Source of the DNA: an uncultured bacterium
GTDB lineage: Bacteria > Cyanobacteriota > Vampirovibrionia > Gastranaerophilales > Gastranaerophilaceae
Direction of reading: 5' to 3'
NCBI GenBank assembly: GCA_902796515.1
Contig: CADBOZ010000089.1
Coordinates: 1-44,524, forward strand
DNA: 44,524 nt
The position numbers and the translations under genes were made by a program. The notes beneath the pieces were generated by a model, which worked only from the letters and a program-made list of their open reading frames with translations, was not told the origin of the DNA and searched no databases. Positions 43,065 through 44,524 of the stretch are shown piece after piece (position 1 is the first letter of the stretch; each line of letters starts with the position of its first letter).

Positions 43065-43133
43065 AAGGTGTCCGAAGGCAATTTTTGCTTTTCAGGTGTT
43101 TTTAGGAAATTGTGTTGTAAGGAGAACCTGAAT

Positions 43134-43328
43134 ATGATTCCAAGTATATCTATGTCTTCTCTGTCATTTAAGGCAAACAAGAAAAATCCCGTCAGAGATT
43201 TGTATGCCAACTTATTAAGTACAATTAAAACAGCACAAGATAAAGCGGGTATTACAGGTACAAATAATAATCCGCTAACTCCTATCCCGATGCAGGGAAC
43301 AGGACAAAAACTTGATATAATAGCTTAA
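43134..43328 (+). CDS. 64-residue protein with SFKA motif
   Basis: 64 residues from ATG 43134, with aaggag (43119-43124) nine bases upstream. A longer frame to GTG 43068 lies upstream of the likely transcript start and is rejected. The N-terminus MIPSISMSSLSFKAN is hydrophobic-polar with an SFKA motif; the rest is a short helix (VRDLYANLLSTIKTAQDKAG) and a Pro/Asn-rich tail. No family is known to me. Its own strong promoter, leader and terminator suggest high expression as a single gene. It may be a small envelope-associated or regulatory protein of this lineage. Confidence 0.75.
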   Translation: MIPSISMSSLSFKANKKNPVRDLYANLLSTIKTAQDKAGITGTNNNPLTPIPMQGTGQKLDIIA

Positions 43329-44357: not shown

Positions 44358-44386
44358 TTGATTATTTTTTTTGTTTCCTATAGTAT
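44358..44386 (+). promoter_or_regulatory. Candidate promoter for the right-end RNA
   Basis: TTGATT (44358-44363), 17 bp, TAGTAT (44381-44386). The expected start lies near 44391-44393, exactly where the first hairpin begins. It is divergent from the glycosyltransferase gene. Confidence 0.45.
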
Positions 44387-44390
44387 AAGA

Positions 44391-44524
44391 ATTGTCCTAA
44401 AGGCAATTTAAAATGTCCAAAGGGCAAGCATGAAAACTGAATATGGGGAATTAGCTCAATTGCCCGAGAAAACCGAGAGGTTTTCGTTAAGAAAACGCAC
44501 CGTAGCAGGTGCGAGAGCATGAAA
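44391..44524 (+). ncRNA. Candidate structured RNA, cut by the window edge
   Basis: 134 visible bases, clearly less AT-rich than the DNA to the left and with no open frame. Hairpins: ATTGTCC/GGCAAT (44391-44407, one bulge); TGTCC/GGGCA (44414-44426); GAAAACC-GAGA-GGTTTTC (44468-44485, perfect, GNRA tetraloop); CGCACC/GGTGCG (44496-44513, perfect). GGGCAA (44422-44427) can also pair with TTGCCC (44460-44465), and GTTTTC (44480-44485) can pair with GAAAAC (44491-44496), excluding the tetraloop stem. I match it to no known RNA class. It may be an RNA gene or a leader of a gene beyond the window. Confidence 0.45.

Follow-up and report, generated by a model that had tools for sequence, protein, structure and literature searches.

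No landing sites of mobile DNA are better known than tRNA genes. Short, hairpin-forming, non-coding sequences that occur in families are also well described, among them REP/BIME sequences, Rickettsia palindromic elements and MITEs. In E. coli, the tyrT/rtT repeats of one operon stand in tandem and hold a 3′-end fragment of the adjacent tRNA gene. The segment analyzed here spans positions 44358–44524 at the right edge of the window (the whole contig, 44,524 nt). From comparison with related loci, the segment is predicted to be the transcribed leader of a tRNA-Ala(UGC) gene that carries a unit made of a copy of the tRNA start and hairpins. Since the window is the entire contig, the segment breaks off where the contig ends.

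Structure of the probable tRNA-Ala leader

The hairpins, the 8-mer repeat, the promoter boxes and the two elements of the long-range GGGCAA/TTGCCC pairing named in the initial annotation are all present (Table 1). The promoter assignment is backed by conservation: among the genus relatives examined, the same tRNA-Ala gene is preceded by TTGATTATTTTTTTTGTTT and then a −10-like box. In some form, the short leader is also found in species without a unit. A structured RNA is supported by the predicted folding energy of the 134-nt strand, −40.2 kcal/mol compared with −26.3 ± 3.2 for shuffled sequences (z −4.3, 0/200); the opposite strand of this segment gives a z of −2.5.

Table 1. Features of the leader segment, in coordinates of the window
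Feature	Position	Strand	Basis
Putative promoter of the tRNA-Ala transcript	44358–44384	+	Sequence; also found ahead of this gene in the genus relatives examined
−35-like box TTGATT	44358–44363	+	Sequence
−10-like box TATAGT	44379–44384	+	Sequence
Leader start with hairpin TTGTCC/GGGCAA	44391–44427	+	Fold; empty-site relatives
TTGTCC / GGGCAA / TTGCCC	44392–44397 / 44422–44427 / 44460–44465	+	Sequence
First direct-repeat copy, AGCATGAAAACTGAATAT + GGGGAATTAGCTCAATTG	44427–44462	+	Relatives have this arrangement again ahead of the intact tRNA
Copy of tRNA-Ala(UGC) nt 1–18	44445–44462	+	18/18 identity with relatives' tRNA-Ala
53-nt insert, class A	44463–44515	+	Fold; six-unit alignment
Hairpin 1 of the class A insert	44466–44485	+	Fold
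Hairpin 2 of the class A insert	44496–44513	+	Fold
Perfect hairpin GAAAACC-GAGA-GGTTTTC	44468–44485	+	Sequence
Hairpin CGCACC..GGTGCG	44496–44513	+	Sequence
Putative fold-back AGCAGGTGC	44504–44512	+	Complementarity to tRNA-Ala nt 24–32, GCACCTGCT; cognate-specific trend in 19 leaders
8-mer GCATGAAA	44428–44435 and 44517–44524	+	Sequence
Second direct repeat, first 9 nt, up to the contig end	44516–44524	+	Structure in relatives

The 8-mer is indeed present twice, but it is the start of a longer tandem repeat of ~36 nt, as judged from the relatives. The flank that precedes the tRNA part of this repeat contains a boxA-like TGAAAACTGAATA. The copied part of tRNA-Ala comprises the 5′ strand of the acceptor stem and the 5′ part of the D-arm, and breaks off in the D-loop. 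It is followed by the class A insert (the core letters A, B, C and E are labels of our own), in which a CCC that can pair with the copied GGG, hairpin 1, an A-rich spacer and hairpin 2 follow each other. Judged by complementarity, AGCAGGTGC reads as a fold-back of the 5′ strand of the tRNA-Ala anticodon stem. When six Ala units, taken from five genomes, are aligned, the stems are largely kept, the loops vary and three pairs are changed on both sides; the stems of hairpins 1 and 2 are kept between genera.

The mutually exclusive hairpins proposed in the initial annotation can form in the window, where GGTTTTC may pair with GAAAACC or with the GAAAAC at 44491–44496, but the second partner is not conserved in relatives, which have AAGAAAATG, AATAAAAACAACC or TATAAAAAATCACC at this position. 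In addition, no T-run follows the hairpins in the window sequence and the downstream gene is a tRNA, and the suggested likeness to riboswitches and attenuators was therefore abandoned. No terminator hairpin common to the units was found. The pairing potential that recurs is between the unit and the tRNA itself.

No Rfam 15 family, riboswitches, RNase P, tmRNA, 6S and SRP RNA among them, matches the segment at the gathering score, and lax thresholds gave chance-level matches only; the initial annotation had likewise been unable to place it in these classes. In 18 loci with related leaders, tRNAs alone reach the gathering score. An rRNA leader, prompted by the boxA-like TGAAAACTGAATA, is rejected as relatives have tRNA-Ala next and no rRNA match, and a tRNA with an intron because an intact tRNA with its own 5′ end comes after the unit in relatives. 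A small open reading frame runs from an ATG at 44430 to a TGA at 44522 (30 codons); it is not conserved, its frame being broken by a stop in the unit of G002. The "unidentified structured RNA" is thus structured, preceded by a promoter and truncated by the contig edge, but is probably the leader of tRNA-Ala and not an independent RNA.

The tRNA-Ala locus in related genomes

We searched 97 related genomes with the segment. Most strong matches share an end point, which is the base following ...TTAGCTCAATTG; of the loci that end there, nearly all have a tRNA-Ala(UGC) gene at this point. The promoter leads straight to tRNA-Ala in G004, G020, G001, G014 and G027, and via a unit in G000, G002, G013 and G022. 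Within the genus, four species have a unit at this locus and at least five have none. The tRNA-Ala unit has a direct repeat of 33–36 nt. In G002, one contig ends within the second of two units, and another begins inside a unit and continues into the intact tRNA.

These arrangements argue strongly that the window would continue past its end into an intact tRNA-Ala(UGC), as GCATGAAA-ACTGAATAT-GGGGAATTAGCTCAATTGGTAGAGC..., or would reach it after additional units. The tRNA-Ala(UGC) gene was not found in the rest of the window's own assembly; its absence would follow from the break of the contig where the repeat restarts. Units can break metagenome assemblies at tRNA genes and make essential tRNA genes look missing, which seems to have happened in this contig.

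Upstream of the locus, the window has a small ORF at 43068–43328 (+), which reads MIPSISMSSLSFKANKKNPV...LDIIA from an internal ATG. Short proteins resembling it are encoded ahead of this locus in G022 (L006) and G027 (L048).

Units at other tRNA genes

Similar units flank many tRNA genes in one family of gut bacteria, and loci named in a public collection assign them to Candidatus Gastranaerophilales. They have a common anatomy: a copy of the tRNA end, a hairpin core at the position of the D-loop or T-loop, in many cases a fold-back of an arm of the tRNA, and then the intact tRNA. In the window's genome, leaders with a self-copy, complementarity to their own tRNA 5′ half, or both are present at the Val, Gly, His, Pro, Met, initiator Met and Phe tRNA genes, and many other tRNA genes have no such leader. 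Other genomes of the family have these leaders at differing sets of tRNA genes. Among the tRNA genes sampled in three genomes, from another genus, another family and another order, no units were observed; the few matches there fit adjacent tRNA genes or chance.

Of 46 upstream copies of at least 9 nt, 38 have nt 1 of the tRNA as their first base and 45 stop at nt 11–20, in the D-loop region; as this set includes loci fetched for holding core B, it describes the units and not their frequency. Copies of the tRNA 3′ end, 12–18 nt long, are found ~105–157 nt downstream of several tRNA genes, and in these 3′-side units the inserted core is on the strand reading into the tRNA. Tandem units are present at Ala, Arg, Thr, Lys, Met, Leu and Pro genes. 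At some single-unit loci the outer flank differs from the inner one, suggesting that the duplication may cover the tRNA part only.

The leader of tRNA-Gly(UCC) at L056 (G000:C110) contains a nearly full reverse complement of the tRNA 5′ half, with 19 nt exact, and its predicted fold displaces the cloverleaf almost wholly. A boxA-like TTGAAAATTRAATA, possibly an antitermination or processing signal, lies directly before many tRNA genes of G000 and its relatives, also within tRNA operons.

Conserved cores

As cores were found solely through exact patterns or BLAST, all counts are lower bounds. Core B, CTCTGCCGACGAG-stem-loop-CGAGGAGAGG, is limited to one bacterial family, where it occurs in 82 of 276 genomes, compared with 0 of 106 other genomes of the class (a split counted from the search table). 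A reversed control pattern gave no match. In all 30 core B loci inspected, the core directly follows a copy of a tRNA end; 27 of these loci are at 5′ ends and 3, on the opposite strand, at 3′ ends. Core B is nearly invariant across 19 genera and its stem covaries: in 39 distinct stems, variable positions are 90% Watson–Crick, against 70% with shuffled halves (0/2000). It can be drawn as a putative kink-turn-like element (CC-GAC-GA-stem / stem-GA-GG).

Core E, GCTTTAGTCGTAGGCGAA...GAGCCGTACGAATAAAGTATGCGC, recurs next to Val, Leu, Pro, Gly, Met and Arg tRNA genes, in most cases at the 3′ end. Copies of class C are scattered through the genus, for the most part not beside tRNA genes, and this repeat is sometimes used as an insert. 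Class C (GAGCAAAGCGAGGGCAAAGGTGTGCGAAGC...CCGTACC) and modules of the form GGCGACGTGGAAATC..GATTTCC.CAGGAGC build mosaic intergenic arrays at L277, L271, L274, L289 and L291 of genus relatives, some of which begin directly after stop codons. At L282 (G025:C13), class C and related repeats adjoin the 5′ end of the RNase P RNA gene, suggesting that other structured RNA genes may be affected too.

Origin of the units

On balance, we consider it somewhat probable that the units are a family of small hairpin-forming insertions into tRNA ends, which duplicate the tRNA end and spare the tRNA. A hairpin-forming sequence of ~50–150 nt would enter the tRNA gene at the D-loop on the 5′ side or, read on the other strand, at the T-loop on the 3′ side. 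The first 11–20 nt of the tRNA gene would be duplicated, usually with some outer flank; the outer copy would stay broken and the inner copy would restore an intact tRNA, so that the host survives. Through unequal exchange at the duplicated ends, units would be gained or lost, which would yield arrays of one to three. Cores would move between tRNA genes of different amino acids. The fold-backs would fit template switching during the insertion event. We infer that insertion and duplication occur in one event and that the cores are mobile, and likewise the strand or molecule (ssDNA or RNA) that folds, the order of events and the class labels.

Presence and absence at the same locus together with target duplication, as expected of a transposon-like insertion, are found at the tRNA-Ala locus. 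Same-locus presence and absence, tandem identical units and cores common to several isotypes fit an inserted, recombining element, and the same anatomy at both tRNA ends, one of them outside the tRNA transcript, points to an event at the DNA level. Against insertion, no transposase, integrase or reverse transcriptase is linked to the units, PF01797 being the enzyme family searched. A simple mobile element would not carry a fold-back matching the cognate tRNA, and mobility at the strain level was not observed. The unequal outer and inner flanks of some single-unit loci are a further point against it. The absence of core B from viral contigs (IMG/VR) also counts against it, and disposes of a phage-borne element. 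The Y1 transposase (PF01797) is absent from 11 of the 12 genomes searched, including G000, G002, G022 and G052, and mobilization of the RAYT/REP type was rejected with its presence in 1 of 12.

More tentatively, and with some doubt, the units could form a class of minimal mobile element that inserts into the loops of a tRNA gene near its 5′ or its 3′ end, has a structured core and spares its target by rebuilding the tRNA end with a matched copy. At 5′ positions such an element might in addition slow the folding of the pre-tRNA in a tRNA-specific way, as a brake.

The isotype specificity of the fold-backs would also be expected if the units were a mutational by-product with neither function nor mobility, an origin that we regard as unlikely. 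Template switching during replication at tRNA hairpins would copy the end, fold back to give an inverted piece and copy the end again, and gene conversion between similar D-arm regions would spread the inserts. The order of copy, short loop, inverted piece, flank and intact tRNA is the trace expected of fold-back switching, most clearly at the tRNA-Gly of the window's genome with its 19-nt exact inverse, and the use of dispersed class C repeats as inserts also speaks for this origin. However, a passive process would not maintain a core as invariant as core B with a covarying stem, unless hairpin correction does. Nor does it sit well with copies that almost always end in the D-loop region, or with the lack of anything alike among the tRNA genes sampled in the three genomes of other groups.

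Predicted pairing with the cognate tRNA

The post-copy parts of 19 leaders, chosen only for having a copy, were compared with 35 isotypes. Nucleotides 8–34 of the own tRNA rank first of 35 in 7 of the 19 leaders (binomial p 6e-7), with a median rank of 3; for the control region, nt 39–65, the median rank in the same leaders is 17. Predicted native pairing of the tRNA is 0.83 alone, 0.28 with unit leaders and 0.63 with other leaders, the 0.28 being partly built in, as the copied tRNA start lowers native pairing anyway. It falls below 0.5 for 18 of 20 unit leaders and 30 of 104 others (Fisher p 4e-7, a value that assumes independence between genomes and genes that are in fact related). These predictions are for equilibrium folding and ignore co-transcriptional folding. 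An effect of the unit on tRNA folding at the RNA level is possible.

The units might be a cis-acting brake or switch on tRNA maturation, which seems improbable to us. The copy would compete for the 3′ acceptor strand and the fold-back would pair with the D-arm and anticodon stem. An active state with leader hairpins and cloverleaf would then alternate with a misfold that RNase P cannot process, and a signal or the speed of transcription might set the balance. Preferential pairing with the own tRNA 5′ half, lower native pairing with unit leaders and the conserved stems of hairpins 1 and 2 agree with such a brake. On the other hand, the drop in native pairing has the limits given above, no ligand-binding domain is common to all units, and their presence varies among close species and isotypes without a visible pattern. 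Units also lie downstream of tRNA genes, on the opposite strand and behind the terminator, outside the expected tRNA transcript; these 3′-side units weaken the reading as a pure pre-tRNA leader switch. The units also provide a natural test of the tolerance for a pre-tRNA leader in competition with the fold of the tRNA itself.

Comparison with known systems

A limited literature search, of open-licence papers only, gave no prior description of the units. Elements of ~100 nt without genes, which copy the 5′ as well as the 3′ ends of tRNAs for many amino acids, thus seem to be undescribed.

The sizes of repeat plus insert recall those of CRISPR arrays, which makes a casposon or Cas1-type integration at tRNA ends conceivable. 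With T-box and attenuator riboswitches, the units share a leader RNA with alternative pairings that involve tRNA sequence, but they have no Rfam match or common terminator hairpin, and they pair with a tRNA encoded in cis. The tyrT/rtT repeats are alike in their tandem units with a fragment of the adjacent tRNA; in contrast to these, the units occur at 5′ and 3′ ends and at many isotypes, and have common, covarying cores. The likeness to REP/BIME, Rickettsia palindromic elements and MITEs is a general one, examined for the Y1 transposase only. Unlike REP and MITE sequences, the units sit at tRNA ends, duplicate a target of 11–36 nt that includes the tRNA end, and often carry fold-backs of the cognate tRNA, and most carriers lack the Y1 transposase. 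Islands and prophages that integrate into tRNA genes through tyrosine-recombinase att sites are alike in the duplicated tRNA end and in the restoration of one intact tRNA. The units differ from them in the insert of ~50–150 nt with no integrase seen, in their presence both at the D-loop on the 5′ side and at the T-loop on the 3′ side, in the many isotypes affected and in their tandem identical copies.
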